The notes beneath the pieces are model-generated. The model had not been told where the DNA came from. It saw nothing but the letters and a program-made list of their open reading frames with translations, and ran no database searches. Positions 3-6,499 of a stretch of DNA of 7,695 nt are shown one piece after another. This DNA is from Thermoplasmata archaeon (GTDB lineage: Archaea > Thermoplasmatota > Thermoplasmata > Thermoplasmatales > Thermoplasmataceae). Position 1 is the stretch's first letter, and the number at the start of each line of letters is the position of its first letter. Location: the NCBI GenBank assembly GCA_021827885.1, contig JAKAUD010000031.1, positions 4,300 through 11,994 on the forward strand, written 5' to 3'. The translations under genes and the position numbers were made by a program.

Positions 3-317
3 AGAACTCAATTTAGGGCAAGAAGAATAACAGAAAGGACAGAGGGCCTGAAACAGAAGATTTTGGATGAATATAATGTTGAAGATTTAAAAGTTAAAAG
101 AGCGCACTCGCTTGCCGAAGTCGGCTTATTTCATGAACAGGATATTTTGGTAGCCAGAATTCCAGTATTTACAAAAAGGAAGGAGTTGTGGGAACTTCTA
201 TGTATTGGCCTTTTGCACAATTTAGGGGACGATAAGGAAGAGAAAGATAGAATTATGTCATTCATAATTGACCTTTACAAAGAAGTAGAAGAAGGAAAAC
301 TTGAAGAGACTCAATAA
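3..317 (+). CDS. Unrecognised protein, C-terminal part, 5' end probably outside window
   Basis: The frame is open from the first complete codon at position 3 to a TAA at 315-317. I recognise no family. The visible part is charged and mostly helical, with a Trp/Leu-rich stretch near the middle (ELWELLCIGLLHNL) and a Lys/Glu-rich tail. There is no in-frame ATG. A TTG at 63 could be a start, giving 84 residues, but the codons before it read as a plausible helix (ITERTEGLKQKIL), so I favour a gene that begins upstream of the window. Against this, another frame ends at a TAA at 28-30 and could be the tail of a different upstream gene. In that case TTG 63 would be the real start. The stop codon overlaps, tail to tail, the end of the dndC-like remnant on the other strand. 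Confidence 0.5.
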   Translation, partial: RTQFRARRITERTEGLKQKILDEYNVEDLKVKRAHSLAEVGLFHEQDILVARIPVFTKRKELWELLCIGLLHNLGDDKEEKDRIMSFIIDLYKEVEEGKLEETQ

Positions 318-640
318 TCTCTGTATGCCCCATTGGCAAATAGTCTTTCGATTGATTTCAATTCTTGCCTCGCGATCAACACTAAATTCAATTCGTCTTG
401 AAGAGCTAACAATTTACGTAAGATGGAGTGCCGGAATTCAATATTCAACCATCATTTTCTCCCATCTTTTCTGAAATATCTTTTTTCAGATTCTTGCTTT
501 CTTCGACAATCAATTTCCTAAATTCAATACTGCCCTTTCTACCGTCAAAATACCAATATTATCAGGTTTCAGCTCTCACCAGGATCAGTTTTATGATCAC
601 TGGGAGAGATATTACTTTCTAACCTCAGAGTACAACAAGA
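311..640 (-). pseudogene. Decayed C-terminal remnant of a second DndC-like protein
   Basis: This is the only content of the stretch between the left-edge gene and nurA. Read on the minus strand, positions 448 to 311 encode about 45 residues ending in TGA. They align without a gap to residues 293-337 of the intact DndC at 4267-5307, with 16 of 45 identical by eye, including LxIxFR, IL, LQ, N, E, I, L, GxY and the final Y. Upstream, positions 541-493 encode EFRKLIVEESK, matching AFREWIVEESK of DndC. The spacer between these two blocks is 44 bases where DndC has 45, so one base is lost and the frame breaks. Two tandem stops (TGA TAA) lie just upstream at about 560. Faint similarity to the FGCWMC region may extend to about 630, with both cysteines lost. 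The 5' limit is approximate. The divergence shows this is an old, different dndC-type gene, not a recent copy. Confidence 0.8.
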
Positions 641-717: not shown

Positions 718-2070
718 CTAAGCTCTAATCATCGAATAAATGTAATTCATTTCTAATGTTGAGTATAACCTCGCCCGGAGCATTCTCTCAGTTTCGCTTA
801 TAGGAAACGCCTCATTGAATGTTCTCCCCTTTTGCGATATACCTGGCCATCGTTCCCGCAACACGCCTGACATTACTCTCTGTACTGCGTTTTTTGTTGC
901 ATCCATATCGCTAGTTGCCTCATCTAGCGTATTTGCCCCTATTGTTGTTAAGTGCAAATCAATTCTCGTGAGTCCAAGTATATTTGGCAATTTGATATCC
1001 GGAGGATATCTGAATCGAAGAAAAGACGTAACATGCGGTTTCTCGAGGCTGTTAGGGCTTTCGTGTTCTGTCTGAATATCTACTGCATCGTGTATGCTCA
1101 TAGTTCTAGAATAGGTGCCTTCTTTAAGATATAGTATGTCTCTGAGGTCCTCGATTCTTTTCGGACGCCCTTTAAGTGTCTTCACCATGCCGACTGCGTT
1201 TTTGAGAACAAATTCTTCTCTCTCAAAATTGGTTTTGTTCTTGAGTATTTCATATTTTCTTAACCACTTTCCCAAGAAAAATAATGGTCCATCAACAAGA
1301 ACATAATTCTGATTTCCATAAGCTTCTCTGAATTTCGATAGTACAATCATCTCAAGAATCTGTCTTATTGTGTTCACTCTGCCTTGTGCTCGTCCACGCA
1401 CTTTACTTATATTAAACAGATTTTTATCCATGAGTAATCTGTTTATTAATTCCGGGTGAGAATCCTCTTTGTCATAGGCTTCTCGAATTAAGTCATTTTC
1501 AGCCTCACTATTCCTTTCTATATTGTTAAACGTAGTGTCACATAGGATTAACGGTTTTATTTGCCCATTAAAACCAAGACCTACGATAGGGTCTTCTGAG
1601 ATCTTTGTCTCAGGTATTACCATTCCCTTGTCAACCCATCCTTGAATAATGTTCCCGTCCTGGAATCCAGCCTCAATCATTCCTCTAAGCGGAAGCAGAA
1701 GAAGCAGATTATCGTGCACGTGCCTGTGGTCTGTCTTAAGTTTTTTGTCTTCGTTTCTTATTGTAACACCGGATGCAATATGGCTAAGTATAACAGGGAC
1801 TAATGCACCCAACTTATCCAGCGTTACCCAGTAAATGACACTTGATCTTTGCACGCCATCTATAAAAGCTCGGAAGTTAATCTTGTCTTGCCCAAACGTG
1901 GTATTTTCGGATGCTTCTTCTGGCCAGAGTGGTTCAGCAGTTCCACTAAGGTCAAACGTTGTCGGGACTAATTGTAACTCCTCCGAATGTTGTGGATCAA
2001 CTGCTCTGCCGAATCTGCTCAACGAGGCTAATATGTCTCCGATCTGCTTTAATTGCGATGTGACGGGCAC
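718..2070 (-). CDS. nurA: NurA-like 5'-3' nuclease (450 aa), partner of the upstream HerA-like ATPase
   Basis: NurA proteins are RNase H-fold, Mn-dependent DNA nucleases that dock on the HerA hexamer and degrade DNA fed to them. Visible NurA hallmarks are the first acidic motif FIDGVQRSS (residues 69-77, Asp71), an Arg/Glu helix RVNTIRQILEM (231-241), the second acidic motif YVLVDGPLFFLG (256-267, Asp260), and the VxMVKTLKG segment (293-301, Lys297). A C-terminal RFRYPPD...LGLTRIDLHL region (352-374) follows, where family members complete the active site. At 450 residues it is longer than housekeeping NurA (about 340), with extra N-terminal sequence and a long insertion between the two Asp motifs. 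I chose the GTG at 2070, three bases after the herA stop, because a good Shine-Dalgarno lies inside the herA 3' end. Family assignment is firm; a defence role is inferred from context. Confidence 0.86.
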   Translation of the reverse strand: MPVTSQLKQIGDILASLSRFGRAVDPQHSEELQLVPTTFDLSGTAEPLWPEEASENTTFGQDKINFRAFIDGVQRSSVIYWVTLDKLGALVPVILSHIASGVTIRNEDKKLKTDHRHVHDNLLLLLPLRGMIEAGFQDGNIIQGWVDKGMVIPETKISEDPIVGLGFNGQIKPLILCDTTFNNIERNSEAENDLIREAYDKEDSHPELINRLLMDKNLFNISKVRGRAQGRVNTIRQILEMIVLSKFREAYGNQNYVLVDGPLFFLGKWLRKYEILKNKTNFEREEFVLKNAVGMVKTLKGRPKRIEDLRDILYLKEGTYSRTMSIHDAVDIQTEHESPNSLEKPHVTSFLRFRYPPDIKLPNILGLTRIDLHLTTIGANTLDEATSDMDATKNAVQRVMSGVLRERWPGISQKGRTFNEAFPISETERMLRARLYSTLEMNYIYSMIRA

Positions 2071-2073
2071 CTT

Positions 2074-4212
2074 TTATTTCACCTGCTCAAGTGTGTGTAT
2101 GGGCTTTGGAAATGAAATAATGATCGGACGAGAATGAACGGCATGCCAGAGAATCATATCACCCTTGCGAAGAACCATTGCCTTTTCCTTAAGACCTCCT
2201 TGTAACCATTGAAAAGCATCTCCTTTCAAGCTTATTGAGTGGGTCCTGCCAATTGCAAAGGTCGAAGTGTTTGATATCAATTCCTCATCCACTTGGTTTG
2301 CAACTTGTTCTGCCCCTATTAGGCTGAGCCCGATACTTCTTCCTCTTGCTGTAATATCCACAATGTGTGTTTTGAGTTCCACACCGAATCTTCCAGCTGG
2401 AGCAAATTTATTAAGTTCATCAACAAATACGATGACTCTGTCTGGAAAGTCTTTTAGATTTACTTCCCTATCTCTGATTTTGAAGGTTTCCTCCTTATTT
2501 CTTTTAGCCTCAAGTAACCGATTAATCATATCATAAATTTGAGTGAACACAAGTCTTTGCCCTTTTGAGTGCAGTTTACTAATATCAATCGACCACACAT
2601 CTCCGGCTTTGAGTTTTTCTATGGGTACCGGTTTTCCCGTGCCGTCTTTCTGAAGTAAAAGGCCTCTCAGTTGGTGATCAACAGCTTGTGAGAGCCTATT
2701 AATTATTTTACTCAAGGTAGCTGTGTGATGCGTGCTGAAGCCAATAGATACCCACTCTCCTGACTTTTTGCTCTGCAATTGAGAAAGGACTGTTGACAGG
2801 TCCTTAAAGTTGGTCGGCTTAGGAAGCAACTTGAAATCGCTATGGGAATTAATGTCATCGACGATGGAAGAAATCAGAGAGACTGCCTTTTCATCAAGGT
2901 CTTGTGGATCAAATAACGATGATAGAGCGACCCCACCATGTTGTGTCAAGTCTGATAGCCCGTAATGGAAAAGCTCTGTCTGTTTTTCATGCGACCTGAA
3001 AGTTAAAGGGTATTTGGAATTGTCAGGAGTCGGAGGGGCAAAGAATTTAACCCTGGATTTTATCTCAAAGGGATTAAGGCCCTCTTCTATACAGCTATTC
3101 CAAAGTTCTAAGTTTCTTGAGTCACCTTCTTCTAACGAAGTTTTGAGCTGTTCAAGGTTATCGGGGCCATCGTCGATCCTCATTAAGTCGGCTTCTTTGA
3201 CATTAAAAAGCACTGCAGCTACATTATCGCTACGGCTTTCGGAGGTTTGGGTTTGGATGGTTTTGCTTATTGCGGAAAATATTATGAAAAGAGCATAACT
3301 CGTTTTTGTAGCCAATCCAGAGGCCCCGGATATATTCAAGTGAGCACCTTCGTAGCCAAGTAAAAATCTAGAATCTACAAAAATTGGAACCGGTGTCTTG
3401 GTGTCATCCCATGTAAAACCGGCCAATATTGCAAATTCATCTGGTATGTCAGCGCCGTAAGCTTCTGTGATCTCATTGGCTGTAGCAAAAAAAACAGGCC
3501 AGTTCCCCATAGGTGGTTCAAACCTGCCATCATTACGAAAAACAACGGACACTTTCGTAACTTTGATTACAGGACGTGATGTCGCTAACTCAACGGTAGG
3601 ATCACCATACCCAGTAGAATAAAAATCATCTATAGGGCTTAGTATTGCACTTGTTGTATACATATCGATGGCCATGCCTATTATCTTTACTTCTCCCTCT
3701 TCACTTTCCCCTCTGACACTAACTATGCTACCAATTTCTATGTGGAGATCTTTTCTGTCTTCAGACCAAAATTCGAATTCTGTGGCCTTTGCCAGACTTT
3801 TGGTAGTTATCGCAACTCTTCCGATTATTCTAGAATTTCCGTCTGTATCACTTTTATTCTCACCAGCTTCATGAGCAGGGTTTGGCCGGTCCTCCTCTTC
3901 TTCTGCTGTGCTTTGGGGCCTTCCCACCTCTGAGAGGTACTCCATGAGAAGGTTAATTTTTCTCCTGTCGTCGGTTTTGAGTCCAGCAAGTTCAGCTTTG
4001 CAGGAATTTATGAGCGAATTAGTATCTTTTATAGCATTTCTGTCTTTCTTCAAGATATCTGAGAGTACCTCGCTTGCTTTAGCTACAATCTTTTGTCGTT
4101 CCTTAGATATACCTTGCTTACTGTGCATATCTCTACTAGATTTCAACCATTTTTCGAAGTCTACAAGCAAATCAGCCAGATAACTCAATAACAGACCACC
4201 CCGCTTATTCAT
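2074..4212 (-). CDS. herA: HerA-like (DUF87-type) hexameric DNA-translocating ATPase (712 aa)
   Basis: HerA/FtsK-superfamily ATPases form hexamers that pump DNA and drive a bound nuclease, here presumably the NurA encoded next. Order of parts: an N-terminal helical extension (residues 1-100, Lys/Glu-rich) and acidic linker (EEEE at 104-107) not found in minimal HerA; a HAS-barrel-like beta domain (about 128-220, starting RIIGRVAI); the Walker A loop GASGLATKTS (296-305, Lys303); Walker B VIVFVDELNKF (593-603, Asp598/Glu599); then TARGRSIGLSLIGAEQ (621-636) and a conserved NTSTFAIGRT (648-657) with a likely arginine finger. Walker A has ATKT instead of the usual GKT/GKS, a variant I associate with a subset of accessory HerA-like ATPases. 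Length exceeds housekeeping HerA (about 500). The ATG lies 24 bases from a TATA-like box, so the message is probably leaderless. It follows dndC by 54 bases with its own promoter, and leads into nurA. Confidence 0.9.
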   Translation of the reverse strand: MNKRGGLLLSYLADLLVDFEKWLKSSRDMHSKQGISKERQKIVAKASEVLSDILKKDRNAIKDTNSLINSCKAELAGLKTDDRRKINLLMEYLSEVGRPQSTAEEEEDRPNPAHEAGENKSDTDGNSRIIGRVAITTKSLAKATEFEFWSEDRKDLHIEIGSIVSVRGESEEGEVKIIGMAIDMYTTSAILSPIDDFYSTGYGDPTVELATSRPVIKVTKVSVVFRNDGRFEPPMGNWPVFFATANEITEAYGADIPDEFAILAGFTWDDTKTPVPIFVDSRFLLGYEGAHLNISGASGLATKTSYALFIIFSAISKTIQTQTSESRSDNVAAVLFNVKEADLMRIDDGPDNLEQLKTSLEEGDSRNLELWNSCIEEGLNPFEIKSRVKFFAPPTPDNSKYPLTFRSHEKQTELFHYGLSDLTQHGGVALSSLFDPQDLDEKAVSLISSIVDDINSHSDFKLLPKPTNFKDLSTVLSQLQSKKSGEWVSIGFSTHHTATLSKIINRLSQAVDHQLRGLLLQKDGTGKPVPIEKLKAGDVWSIDISKLHSKGQRLVFTQIYDMINRLLEAKRNKEETFKIRDREVNLKDFPDRVIVFVDELNKFAPAGRFGVELKTHIVDITARGRSIGLSLIGAEQVANQVDEELISNTSTFAIGRTHSISLKGDAFQWLQGGLKEKAMVLRKGDMILWHAVHSRPIIISFPKPIHTLEQVK
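2079..2084 (-). promoter_or_regulatory. Shine-Dalgarno for nurA inside the end of herA
   Basis: On the minus strand AGGTGA lies within the last codons of herA, 8 bases before the GTG of nurA. The herA stop and the nurA start are separated by only three bases. This supports the GTG start and indicates that the two proteins are made together by translational coupling. Confidence 0.7.
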
Positions 4213-4231
4213 TAATCTATCTGCAAATACG

Positions 4232-4239
4232 TTTTAAAT
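4232..4239 (-). promoter_or_regulatory. TATA-like box of the herA-nurA operon
   Basis: On the minus strand the sequence reads GATTTAAAACG, centred about 24 bases before the herA ATG, with an A-rich stretch (CCAAAAG) upstream that could be a BRE. The message would be leaderless or nearly so. It implies that herA-nurA can be transcribed separately from dndC. Confidence 0.5.
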
Positions 4240-4256
4240 CTTTTGGCTTTTAACAT

Positions 4257-4270
4257 CTAAAACGTTTTAG
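4257..4270. repeat. Perfect 14-base palindrome between dndC and herA
   Basis: CTAAAACGTTTTAG is its own reverse complement and covers the dndC stop codon. It lies 21-45 bases upstream of the herA TATA box and start region; its half-site ACGTTTTA recurs 33 bases away, over the herA TATA box (4229-4236). It could be an operator or simply AT-rich chance sequence; without a loop it would be a poor terminator hairpin. Confidence 0.45.
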
Positions 4271-5307
4271 TTAGTCTTTTTTTCCACTTTTGCCATATAA
4301 TTTAAATAACGGCCACTGGTCATAAGAGCACGAATCTCATCAATTTCTTTTTGCGTTATTATGGGAATATTAACATCCTGTTGGAGTCTAATAACCTCGT
4401 TCAATATACGTTCGCGAAACTGTATCTGGAGTCTCCCTTTCTTGCCGTCGTTTCTGAGGTATCTGTTTTCTGTTTTCTTGCTTTCTTCCACGATCCACTC
4501 CCTAAATGCAAGAAGTTTTTTCACCCTTTCATCGCCGGACTTCGCGAGTGCTATCATGGTCCTGTCTTTCATCACCACAGTACACATCCAGCATCCGAAC
4601 CTCATAGCTGTATTTCCGTAAAGGTCCACAACATATTGAACCTCAGGAACAACAGTTGCAGCTGGCTTCATGAGAAAGTACCATACGTCCTGTGCGGTCC
4701 AATTGATCAAAGGAGCAGCCACATCGATGCCGTTTTGCTGTGCCCAGGCATCGCTTCCGCACTCACTGGAGTCTCCAGCTAAGCAGGAGTTTTTGAGCCT
4801 GATATCTCTCTGCTGGCTCTCGCCGATCCTCATACCAGTAATGAATAGACCTTTATCGTCGTGAAATTTTCTGGACGGCTTTATTTTTATTTTCGGTGTA
4901 CACCACCTGAATCTTGGCCCTGGAGGAGGATAGCCTCTCCCTATCATTCGTACCCAGTAAGTGTCCTCTATGTCTGGATAAACGATTTTAACCTTCGCCG
5001 GGTACTTTTTCTCCAAAGCTTCAAGGAATCTCCGGGCAACATTGACCATTTGCGGAATCTCCATCATAGTATCCGCATAGGTGACATTAATATCTAAGTC
5101 TGGATGAAGTGCTTTCACGTAAAGCGCAAGGACAACTAGTGCAGTACTGTCTTTCCCACCACTGTAGGTTACGATCCATCTCTTGTTCCTCTCGTACAGT
5201 TTTTCACATATTTGCACGCTTTCATTGAACCTACCAATGTAATAGCTTGTAATTCTTGACGGCAGTGAAAGGATCTCGTCATTGTACTCCGGTTGCAAAA
5301 GCTCCAT
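4267..5307 (-). CDS. dndC: DndC-family ATP-pyrophosphatase / PAPS-reductase-like Fe-S protein (346 aa)
   Basis: DndC-type proteins use a PP-loop to adenylate their target and carry a 4Fe-4S cluster; in Dnd systems they act in replacing a backbone oxygen of DNA with sulfur. Visible parts, numbered from the chosen start: PP-loop SGGKDS (49-54), YADTMMEIP (77-85), RWCTPKIKIKP (134-144), GMRIGESQQR (158-167), cysteines C175 and C183, INWTAQDVW (201-209), and FGCWMCTVV (237-245) with C239 and C242. C136, C175, C183, C239 and C242 supply enough ligands for a cluster. At 346 residues it is shorter than classical bacterial DndC (about 500), missing C-terminal sequence. I place the start at ATG 5307. 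A GTG at 5316 would add three residues but leaves only 8-16 bases to the TATATATAA box. A sulfate-assimilation PAPS reductase (CysH) is the main alternative, but the extra cysteines and the HerA/NurA neighbours argue against it. Confidence 0.88.
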   Translation of the reverse strand: MELLQPEYNDEILSLPSRITSYYIGRFNESVQICEKLYERNKRWIVTYSGGKDSTALVVLALYVKALHPDLDINVTYADTMMEIPQMVNVARRFLEALEKKYPAKVKIVYPDIEDTYWVRMIGRGYPPPGPRFRWCTPKIKIKPSRKFHDDKGLFITGMRIGESQQRDIRLKNSCLAGDSSECGSDAWAQQNGIDVAAPLINWTAQDVWYFLMKPAATVVPEVQYVVDLYGNTAMRFGCWMCTVVMKDRTMIALAKSGDERVKKLLAFREWIVEESKKTENRYLRNDGKKGRLQIQFRERILNEVIRLQQDVNIPIITQKEIDEIRALMTSGRYLNYMAKVEKKTN

Positions 5308-5323
5308 AATAAACACTAACTGG

Positions 5324-5334
5324 TATATATAAGA
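5324..5334 (-). promoter_or_regulatory. TATA box of dndC
   Basis: Minus-strand CTTATATATA lies 17-27 bases upstream of ATG 5307. This is right for a leaderless archaeal transcript starting at that ATG and too close for the GTG at 5316, so it decides the start. Confidence 0.55.
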
Positions 5335-5778: not shown

Positions 5779-6318
5779 ATGAGTGCTAGTATCAAGGTAG
5801 TCGTAACACATCCAGATGGGAATCCTGCCGCCGGTGCTAAAGTTTCTCTTTACAACGAGAGTGCAGTTTTCAATTCAGTGAAAGACTGGCACGGAATAAC
5901 TGACAAAAACGGGACATGTGACTGGGAATCTATGAACACTGGTGCTTTTGGAGACATTTACCTTTTCAAGGCAAATTGGGTAGATCAGAAAGAGGACTTG
6001 ATTTTCTCGGGTGAAAAGAGGGAAAGGGTAAAGAGAGACATAACTGTGAAGATTAACTTGAAAGTTGCCGGCCTGGAGGAAATATTCCAACTCAATATAA
6101 GTAAACAAGATCTTGACAACATATCGACAATTGACGATGGTCCAGAGGTTGTCAAAGTTATAAGGGAACTCTCGGTAACAACCAAGAGCAAGCTAGCCCA
6201 TGCTTCAGTAATGCTGGAATCTTATGCGATTGAGTCCTTTATAAGAACACTGGTGAAGAGAAATAACAAATGGAGCGATGGCAAGCATGGAGACTCTGAC
6301 GCTTGGACAGATACTTGA
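5779..6318 (+). CDS. Transthyretin/carboxypeptidase-regulatory-like domain plus first half of a HEPN domain (frameshifted)
   Basis: Residues 4-95 look like a beta-sandwich of the carboxypeptidase-regulatory/Cna-B class: IKVVVTHPDGNPAAGAKVSLYNES, a short loop, GITDKNGTCDWESMNTG and GDIYLFKANW follow the usual pattern of a strand, G-x-P-x-x-G-A, a strand, and T-D-x-x-G. There is no signal peptide, so the domain is probably intracellular. After a linker, residues 122-160 form long helices (KSKLAHASVMLESYAIESFIRTL) resembling the first helices of HEPN domains. The last 15 or so residues (WSDGKHGDSDAWTDT) do not fit the domain and look like out-of-frame sequence. The natural continuation is the overlapping frame at 6278-6499, which holds the catalytic HEPN motif. 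A TTAAATAT box at 5749-5756 lies about 26 bases upstream of the ATG. Either the gene is broken or one base is a sequencing error. Confidence 0.65.
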   Translation: MSASIKVVVTHPDGNPAAGAKVSLYNESAVFNSVKDWHGITDKNGTCDWESMNTGAFGDIYLFKANWVDQKEDLIFSGEKRERVKRDITVKINLKVAGLEEIFQLNISKQDLDNISTIDDGPEVVKVIRELSVTTKSKLAHASVMLESYAIESFIRTLVKRNNKWSDGKHGDSDAWTDT

Positions 6319-6499
6319 CAATGACGTAGTAAAGAACCTAATCAATACAGACCTTTATCGCCGCATTAAGTTATTCAAAGAATTTAGAAATCCTGCAACC
6401 CATCCCAAGCAGATAGGCTCTTACTTTGACGAGGCCATAATTGGACTTGAACTGATAAGGGAATTTATAAAAACTCTCTTCAACAAGCCTGCTGCTTAA
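6278..6499 (+). CDS. Second half of the HEPN domain (Rx4H motif), split from the preceding frame
   Basis: HEPN domains are small helical bundles, often ribonucleases in toxin-antitoxin and phage-defence systems, with an R-x4-6-H active site. The motif is seen here as RNPATH (residues 37-42 from the ATG at 6278), preceded by a helix DLYRRIKLFKEF and followed by SYFDEAIIGLELIREFIKTLF, a typical final helix. On its own the 73 residues are too short for the four-helix fold; the missing helices are in the frame that ends at 6318. Both parts together span 721 bases, one more than a multiple of three, so one extra base somewhere in 6257-6318 would explain the break. The ATG at 6278 is therefore probably internal. 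A separate overlapping gene is possible but less likely. Confidence 0.6.
   Translation: MASMETLTLGQILDNDVVKNLINTDLYRRIKLFKEFRNPATHPKQIGSYFDEAIIGLELIREFIKTLFNKPAA

Follow-up and report, generated by a model that had tools for sequence, protein, structure and literature searches.

What is the reason for placing a sulfur-modification-type enzyme next to a DNA pump and its nuclease? The question is raised by a 7,695-nt stretch of a Thermoplasmata archaeon genome (contig JAKAUD010000031.1, positions 4,300 to 11,994; called the window throughout, at its full length), in which three genes on one strand encode a DndC-like, a HerA-like and a NurA-like protein. This was the starting claim of the original prediction, made from the letters alone, and it was confirmed by the open reading frames (ORFs), by profile searches and by a fold match for NurA. 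The prediction had also held that DndA, DndB, DndD, DndE and restriction partners are missing and that the HerA-NurA pair does not lie beside mre11/rad50. In agreement with this, searches of the window with the Pfam, PADLOC and NCBIfam libraries recognised no Dnd gene other than DndC, and Pfam recognised neither mre11 nor rad50.

A recurrent DndC-HerA-NurA unit

A HerA-profile scan of the GTDB species genomes gave at least 558 relatives, of which the best 80 (not a random sample) were kept, together with five viral contigs. Altogether 90 loci were examined (L001-L085, L095 and L181-L184), the window being extra. Genes were called as longest ORFs, and a neighbour is a gene recognised within 4.5 kb of HerA in single-seed searches. 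A DndC-family gene adjoins this HerA in seven of the 90 loci and in the window (Aquificota, WOR-3, Thermomicrobiota, Bacillota and Baldrarchaeota). The gene order is DndC-HerA-NurA in four of the seven, among them L003 (WOR-3), L004 (Thermalbibacter) and L005 (Desulfovirgula); in L003 and L004 the flanking genes look, by eye, like housekeeping genes. In L001 (Aquificota) the DndC is divergent and the contig stops within HerA. The 4.5-kb surroundings of HerA in the seven DndC loci yielded neither Mre11 nor Rad50, and neither a type IIG methylase nor DruA. From L006 to L085, none of the 80 loci has a DndC within this distance; on one viral contig (L083) a DndC-profile match (1.4e-10) lies about 6.4 kb from HerA.

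The profile scores of these relatives are circular by construction, because the DndCs of L001-L005 are within the DndC profile and the NurAs of L002-L005 within the NurA profile. The scores of the window DndC used as a single sequence are independent of this (L001, 8.6e-39; L003, 1e-65; L004, 2.5e-65; L005, 3.3e-61), and so are L181 and L183. These two loci came from a NurA-profile scan of 1126 genomes in six groups (E 1e-15), for which phyla were chosen for a known relative and one was subsampled (400). The scan gave nine hits, which is not a prevalence, and four of the nine are the genomes of L002-L005. An adjacent DndC was present at six of the nine hits: the four already known, L181 (WOR-3 group) and L183 (Aquificota group). 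Of the rest, L184 has a DruA-like gene instead, L182 is a NurA fragment without HerA, and in L214 NurA stands at the contig end. Contigs of equal size suggest further shared contexts, sizes 5825 and 5455 being common to the DndC, HerA and NurA clusters and 9388 and 9167 to those of DndC and HerA.

The HerA tree (quick IQ-TREE, 57 rows, including 29 of the 82 unlinked loci) requires a single change to part the eight DndC-linked rows from the 29 unlinked ones, a count that none of 500 shuffles reached. Support for the dividing branch is 47, and that for a branch of 23 rows holding seven of the eight linked rows is 100; a long branch carries L004 and L005. Rare adjacency of the genes among relatives, which the original prediction had named as a finding against it, was not observed in close relatives: a DndC-family gene adjoins HerA in seven of the 90 loci, not counting the window, and all seven fall in that part of the HerA tree to which the window belongs. 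The DndC tree had 54 rows, with 20 of the 80 viral loci and only two DndCs from dnd operons, and excluded the PAPS reductase of L002. Here three changes are required for the HerA-linked DndCs, of which well supported branches make two unavoidable, and these DndCs fall in three places: the clade of the window, a clade of L003, L004, L005 and L181, and the Aquificota pair. The three placements imply that the pairing of HerA-NurA with DndC arose or persisted across distinct DndC lineages. It is the recurrence in other genomes that takes the arrangement seen in the window beyond chance. The trio is therefore a recurrent unit, in which a DndC-family enzyme is coupled to a HerA-NurA of the Deinococcus radiodurans type in several bacterial phyla and in archaea.

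Properties of the three proteins

The window DndC matches PADLOC DndC (9.7e-50) and Pfam PAPS_reduct (1.1e-15). Grouping with CysH, named in the original prediction as a finding that would speak against it, was not observed: the DndC equivalog TIGR03183 gave 9.8e-46, compared to 0.0038 for cysH and 9e-6 for PRK02090. Identity as a CysH sulfate-assimilation enzyme was rejected on this difference (0.0038 against 1e-45). The protein has the PP-loop SGGKDS and the RWC and CWxC motifs. Across its close clade the PP-loop is conserved together with cysteines 139, 178, 186, 242 and 245, which include those of RWC and CWxC. Two further cysteines of the window DndC, in an SC..ECG stretch, recur in L003, L004 and L181, in Thermus phage Tsatsa and in a plasmid protein of Deinococcus. 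Another cysteine pair, in an insert before RFGCW, is present in two DndCs from dndCDE operons (L215, L216) and in L183; we infer that it corresponds to the "dyad" of PMC12839542. The sequence of the window DndC had no match in the PDB, and its AlphaFold2 model matches PP-loop enzymes of several families, including PAPS/APS reductases and tRNA thiolases. Thermoplasmatales names occur among its relatives. DndD was above the TIGR03185 cut-off in none of nine relatives' genomes, with weak matches in six of nine compared to nine of 14 controls; the DndE search matched none of seven genomes, and the control genomes also matched nowhere.

On the viral side, HerA and NurA were absent from all 80 DndC loci fetched. 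Thermus phage Tsatsa and two viral contigs (L094, L096, L097) encode, without HerA or NurA, DndC-like PAPS reductases with 36-38% identity to that of the window (38% for Tsatsa), which are candidates for a phage-side sulfur modification.

For HerA, the family libraries gave weak scores (PADLOC mad8, 2.6e-8; PADLOC HerA, 7e-4; NCBIfam HerA, 0.017). A family profile of 24 relatives aligned to D. radiodurans HerA (7f6d_B) over 576 positions, nearly its full length, with an E-value of 9.1e-71. The motifs comprise a variant Walker A (GASGLATKTS), a Walker B (DELNK), RGR and Q636; all eight cassette HerAs share the unusual Walker A pattern G.(S/T)G.(A/S).K(T/S)S, and so do the HerAs of Thermus and Rubrobacter taken for comparison. 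The nearest characterised relative is the D. radiodurans NurA-HerA complex (7F6D, 7WRW, 7WRX), which shares the nearly full-length HerA, the same P-loop variant and the NurA fold; by contrast, it has been studied in end-resection repair, and the excerpt of PMC9960219 describes no DndC partner. The claim that HerA and NurA are longer than the housekeeping proteins held for the window, though not in all cassettes, HerA having 556 amino acids in L004 and 573 in L005. Many relatives have the N-terminal extension of the window HerA (about 125 amino acids), as do, by length, the WOR-3 and Aquificota cassettes; it is absent in L004 and L005, and perhaps serves docking. Status as the sole housekeeping HerA-NurA copy, also named in the original prediction as a refutation, was weighed in relatives' genomes: a second HerA of this family occurs in three of seven that bear the cassette (G003, G005, G606). 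No second HerA-NurA copy was found in G001 or in G459, the latter not having been searched with PF09376, and NurAs with PF09376 are present elsewhere in the genomes G002, G004 and G005.

The window NurA had no match in Pfam (PF09376 included), PADLOC or NCBIfam, and PF09376 is carried by one listed relative (P0027). Its profile matched no PDB sequence. At E ≤ 0.001 the AlphaFold2 model (pLDDT, predicted local distance difference test, 85.5) matches nothing in the PDB but D. radiodurans NurA (8.1e-10) and two chains of Thermotoga NurA (3.4e-9 and 1.2e-8). Asp71 does not vary in two overlapping sets of aligned relatives (25 and 24), and D178 is invariant among the aligned relatives. The protein is thus predicted by its model to have the RNase H-like NurA fold with a conserved Asp. 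No plasmid match to this NurA was obtained and no relative of it was found in viral contigs; HerA matches have 21-26% identity on plasmids and 28% on phages. With NurA unmatched there, HerA distant and the viral DndC loci devoid of both, a plasmid- or phage-borne cassette is disfavoured.

Layout of the window and a possible recombination footprint in dndC

The features of the window are collected in Table 1. The intergenic gaps are 54 nt (dndC/herA) and 3 nt (herA/nurA). The 9-mer TTATATATA occurs once, counting both strands of the window; its closeness to the dndC ATG, taken with the Thermoplasmatales among the DndC relatives, would point to a host among the archaea and to an operon that is nearly leaderless. 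Promoter and terminator patterns were not informative, numbering 15 in the window against 9.9 ± 2.8 and two against 3.2 ± 1.6, respectively.

Table 1. Coordinates of features in the window
Feature	Position	Strand	Remarks
DndC-like PP-loop/PAPS-reductase-family protein	4267..5316	minus	349 amino acids from GTG; likely start ATG at 5307 (346 amino acids)
PP-loop SGGKDS of DndC	5146..5163		
HerA ATPase, D. radiodurans type, with N-terminal extension	2074..4212	minus	712 amino acids
N-terminal extension of HerA	3838..4212		about 125 amino acids
Walker A of HerA	3298..3327		variant
Walker B of HerA	2407..2421		
NurA nuclease	718..2070	minus	450 amino acids; D71 and D178, fold match
Asp71 codon of NurA	1858..1860		
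TTATATATA, archaeal TATA-box-like	5324..5332	minus	17-25 nt upstream of the dndC ATG; putative role
Decayed 3' end of a second dndC, behind nurA	314..528	minus	interrupted by an in-frame stop and a change of frame
Switch interval of the dndC mosaic	4555..4632	minus	codons 226-251 from ATG; P0115-like before, P0116-like after
Direct repeat, 37 nt	491..527 and 4475..4511		
Overlapping ORFs in different frames	5779..6318 and 6278..6499	plus	perhaps a single gene with a frame change

The first of the two overlapping plus-strand ORFs has a weak Ig-like start (Big_1, 7.6e-4, below the cut-off).

Between the remnant behind nurA and the nearest DndC tails the identity is 77-78%, and with the window's own dndC tail it is 38%; none of 20 shuffles of the first 800 nt reached E 1e-5. 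The 37-nt direct repeat reflects the same dndC homology as the remnant. The dndC gene itself appears as a mosaic: at gap-free informative sites, 66 of 66 match the relative P0115 up to codon 225 and 36 of 36 match P0116 from codon 252 (0 of 10000 shuffles), a count that leaves out four sites matching neither relative and nine gap sites. In the switch interval the window DndC, P0115 and P0116 are identical. The simplest account would be that a segment made of a dndC tail, herA and nurA recombined into a resident dndC, which kept the frame open and pushed the old tail behind nurA. If so, the dndC tail, herA and nurA travel together. The remnant, at 77% to the tail of P0115, is not the P0115 tail itself. 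A chimera of metagenome assembly in the switch interval could mimic the mosaic; since the linkage of tail, herA and nurA lies downstream of the switch, it would be left intact.

Partners of HerA-NurA and the possible role of the trio

What else does this HerA keep company with? Its neighbours in the 90 loci are Mre11 in 35 (32 with Rad50), a type IIG methylase in 15, a GHKL ATPase with a radical-SAM protein in ten, DndC in seven and a DruA-like gene in four. A NurA-HerA pair has none of these in ten; seven have HerA with nothing recognised, one is a Marinitoga virus with a reverse-strand radical-SAM-like match, and one has no HerA. The labels rest on Pfam and PADLOC matches of one to three members each, Mre11 and Rad50 being read from Metallophos and SbcC-like matches. 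The IIG-like restriction-methylase (about 1100 amino acids) lies upstream of NurA-HerA in 14 of the 15 loci, in several phyla and one viral contig (among the 15: L009, L011, L012, L013, L015, L016, L018, L019, L028, L031, L038, L044 and L083; also L231). Genome G003 has the DndC trio and also a second HerA-NurA pair, separated by three ORFs from a IIG methylase that lies upstream of it. The GHKL/HSP90-like ATPase and the radical-SAM-like protein follow NurA-HerA as a four-gene unit in bacteria, an archaeon and viral contigs (L033, L048, L053, L055, L067, L078, L081, L082, L084 and L085). Directly upstream of NurA-HerA in L006, L008, L027 and L184 stands the DruA-like gene. PF14236 matched the three tested at about 3e-27, Mom (PF25680) matched two of these three at about 1e-4, below the Pfam cut-off, and PADLOC had no family for those of L006 and L184. 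From its sequence, this is possibly a second cassette of a modification enzyme with NurA-HerA. Marinitoga camini virus 1 (L095) encodes a NurA-HerA pair. HerA-NurA thus behaves as a module whose neighbours are either repair genes or enzymes with a known (IIG) or possible (DndC; DruA, from its weak Mom match) role in DNA modification.

Published work on sulfur in DNA and on HerA-NurA sets the frame for a function. The DndABCDE/DndFGH systems likewise have a DndC-family enzyme with PP-loop and CWxC, and their DndH carries a HerA/FtsK ATPase (PMC10853773); in the trio, by contrast, HerA is a separate, NurA-partnered protein, and DndD is lacking above the cut-off in the nine relatives' genomes. 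Type 4 bacteriophage exclusion (BREX)/Ssp systems join a PAPS reductase and an ATPase in DNA-sulfur defence (PMC12839542), whereas DUF4007, PglZ, BrxL and SspB were not recognised in the window. In the antiphage complexes SIR2-HerA and HerA-DUF4297 (named in PMC12977600) HerA and an effector form a defence machine; the nuclease of the trio differs in being NurA, and the extra gene in being a DndC-family enzyme. For D. radiodurans NurA, phosphorothioate-linked stretches protected DNA, and the products of loop nicking were absent at those bonds (PMC9960219). With four terminal phosphorothioates, Thermococcus kodakarensis HerA-NurA left exactly four linked nucleotides at each end; its activity needs NurA Asp49, and the authors consider antiviral defence likelier than end resection for HerA-NurA (PMC12977600).

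We prefer, with a probability of roughly 0.45, the reading that the trio would be a compact, modification-gated degrader of invading DNA, in which DndC sulfur-marks self DNA and HerA-NurA destroys what is unmarked. The DndC-like enzyme would put the mark, most likely a backbone phosphorothioate, on self DNA; since DndD is missing, the HerA ATPase and the nicking nuclease NurA may stand in during marking. The HerA ring would take duplex DNA from its ends and feed it to NurA for degradation, marked self DNA being spared and unmarked viral or plasmid DNA destroyed. Because the bond resists NurA and HerA-NurA nevertheless acts beyond it, dense marks are probably also needed for sparing, or else recognition, by DndC or another part or by control of loading. 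The intact catalytic motifs of DndC, HerA and NurA, the linkage of the loci and the resistance of the bond to NurA (PMC9960219, PMC12977600) are consistent with this reading. Of the original prediction, the three-gene unit stands as recurrent; the two functions that it offered, a compact phosphorothioation-linked restriction system or a DndC sensor, are still predictions.

Several observations weigh against the modification-gated degrader. The window DndC scores 156.5 bits with TIGR03183, under the cut-off of 290.4, and does not have the cysteine pair before RFGCW of the two bona fide DndCs (L215, L216). We know of no instance of DNA modification by DndC alone. The DndCs of the Aquificota pair (L001, L183) group with the two dnd-operon DndCs (support 99), outside their own branch, and lie on the opposite strand. 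The Baldrarchaeota locus L002 has another order (PAPS reductase-NurA-HerA), and its enzyme is a different PAPS reductase with ferredoxin domains, at only 2.7e-6 to the window DndC. Three of the seven DndC loci are on short contigs (L001, 3.6 kb; L005, 5.1 kb; L002, 5.5 kb), so the absence of other genes there means little. Among window-like DndC clusters whose longest contig is at least 9 kb (22 listed of 120), two equal a HerA-hit contig in size, and many of the closest DndCs (Thermoplasmatales) may be without this HerA. A phosphorothioate 3' strand did not keep the D. radiodurans complex from cutting the plain 5' strand (PMC9960219), and the complex of T. kodakarensis degraded both strands inside terminal phosphorothioates (PMC12977600). 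A bond that resists NurA and is nevertheless passed by HerA-NurA implies that sparse marks would not protect a chromosome by chemistry alone.

A related and rather unlikely reading is that DndC places phosphorothioates with the help of a single HerA-NurA machine, which also destroys DNA without them, reading the mark while pumping; HerA-NurA would then serve as a portable effector, joined in the course of evolution to methylases, DruA/Mom-like enzymes and DndC. At its boldest, this reading would have the mark act as a Chi site that halts HerA-NurA. A halt by chemistry only is disfavoured by the published assays on terminal phosphorothioates, and a reading subunit such as DndC would thus be needed. 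It is also conceivable, and in our view unlikely, that the trio only modifies DNA, with HerA and the nickase NurA replacing DndD/DndE or SspC/SspB and any restriction located elsewhere. The parts list would suit this (sulfurtransferase, ATPase, nicking subunit), D. radiodurans NurA nicks without ATP or HerA (PMC9960219), and inspection of the longer cassette loci by eye revealed no separate restriction gene. However, HerA stands without a nearby DndC in 82 of the 90 loci, 75 of these with NurA, and the characterised HerA-NurA pairs degrade DNA (PMC12977600, PMC9960219). DndC might instead be a sensor or activator that licenses HerA-NurA through a nucleotide which it makes or binds, or in response to redox or sulfur state, with no mark on DNA. 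The lack of DndD agrees with such a role, as does CasCysH of type IV-B CRISPR (clustered regularly interspaced short palindromic repeats) systems, read as a nucleotide-binding relative without sulfur transfer (PMC8175902). CasCysH is reported without a catalytic cysteine (PMC8175902), whereas the close clade of the window DndC keeps the PP-loop and five cysteines, and we regard the sensor as unlikely to the same degree.

That the locus is a DNA-repair cassette, with end resection by HerA-NurA and with DndC as a bystander or as a thiolase of tRNA or metabolites, appears distinctly unlikely. In 35 of the 90 loci a HerA of this family does adjoin Mre11 (alone or together with Rad50), D. radiodurans nurA-herA was studied as a resection pair (PMC9960219), and no second HerA of the family was found in G001 and G459. 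The DndC-linked loci, by contrast, have no Mre11 or Rad50 within 4.5 kb (three of the seven being on short contigs), three of seven genomes have second HerA copies, and the trio is rare and scattered (nine NurA-profile hits in 1126 genomes). The neighbours and the second copies disfavour an ordinary repair locus. Very unlikely, finally, is a type IV-like system, in which HerA-NurA would attack DNA with phage sulfur or other modifications and DndC would be a decoy or have a counter-role. Phages do encode DndC-like PAPS reductases, as in Tsatsa, and the 80 viral DndC loci have neither HerA nor NurA, but phosphorothioate bonds resist NurA rather than attract it (PMC9960219, PMC12977600).

Defence linked to DNA modification is a known kind of system; for the composition DndC-HerA-NurA we found no description in open PubMed Central (PMC) papers. 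In their full text, with subscription papers and supplements outside the scope, no paper combined NurA with DndC or NurA with PAPS reductase and defense. The trio was not described in the titles or abstract openings of open PMC papers on NurA, HerA, DndC, DruA and defence, and the word NurA is absent from the main texts of a phosphorothioation survey (PMC10853773), a BREX survey (PMC12839542) and a 2026 survey of archaeal immunity (PMC12988326). If the modification-gated degrader is the right reading, the trio would be a further architecture of DNA-sulfur defence beside Dnd and Ssp/BREX type 4, with a nuclease whose own cuts are resisted at the bond of the mark. HerA-NurA would gain a role in defence, after doubt was cast in 2026 on its part in end resection (PMC12977600). 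The findings also suggest that HerA-NurA modules combined with DNA-modification enzymes form a wider class.

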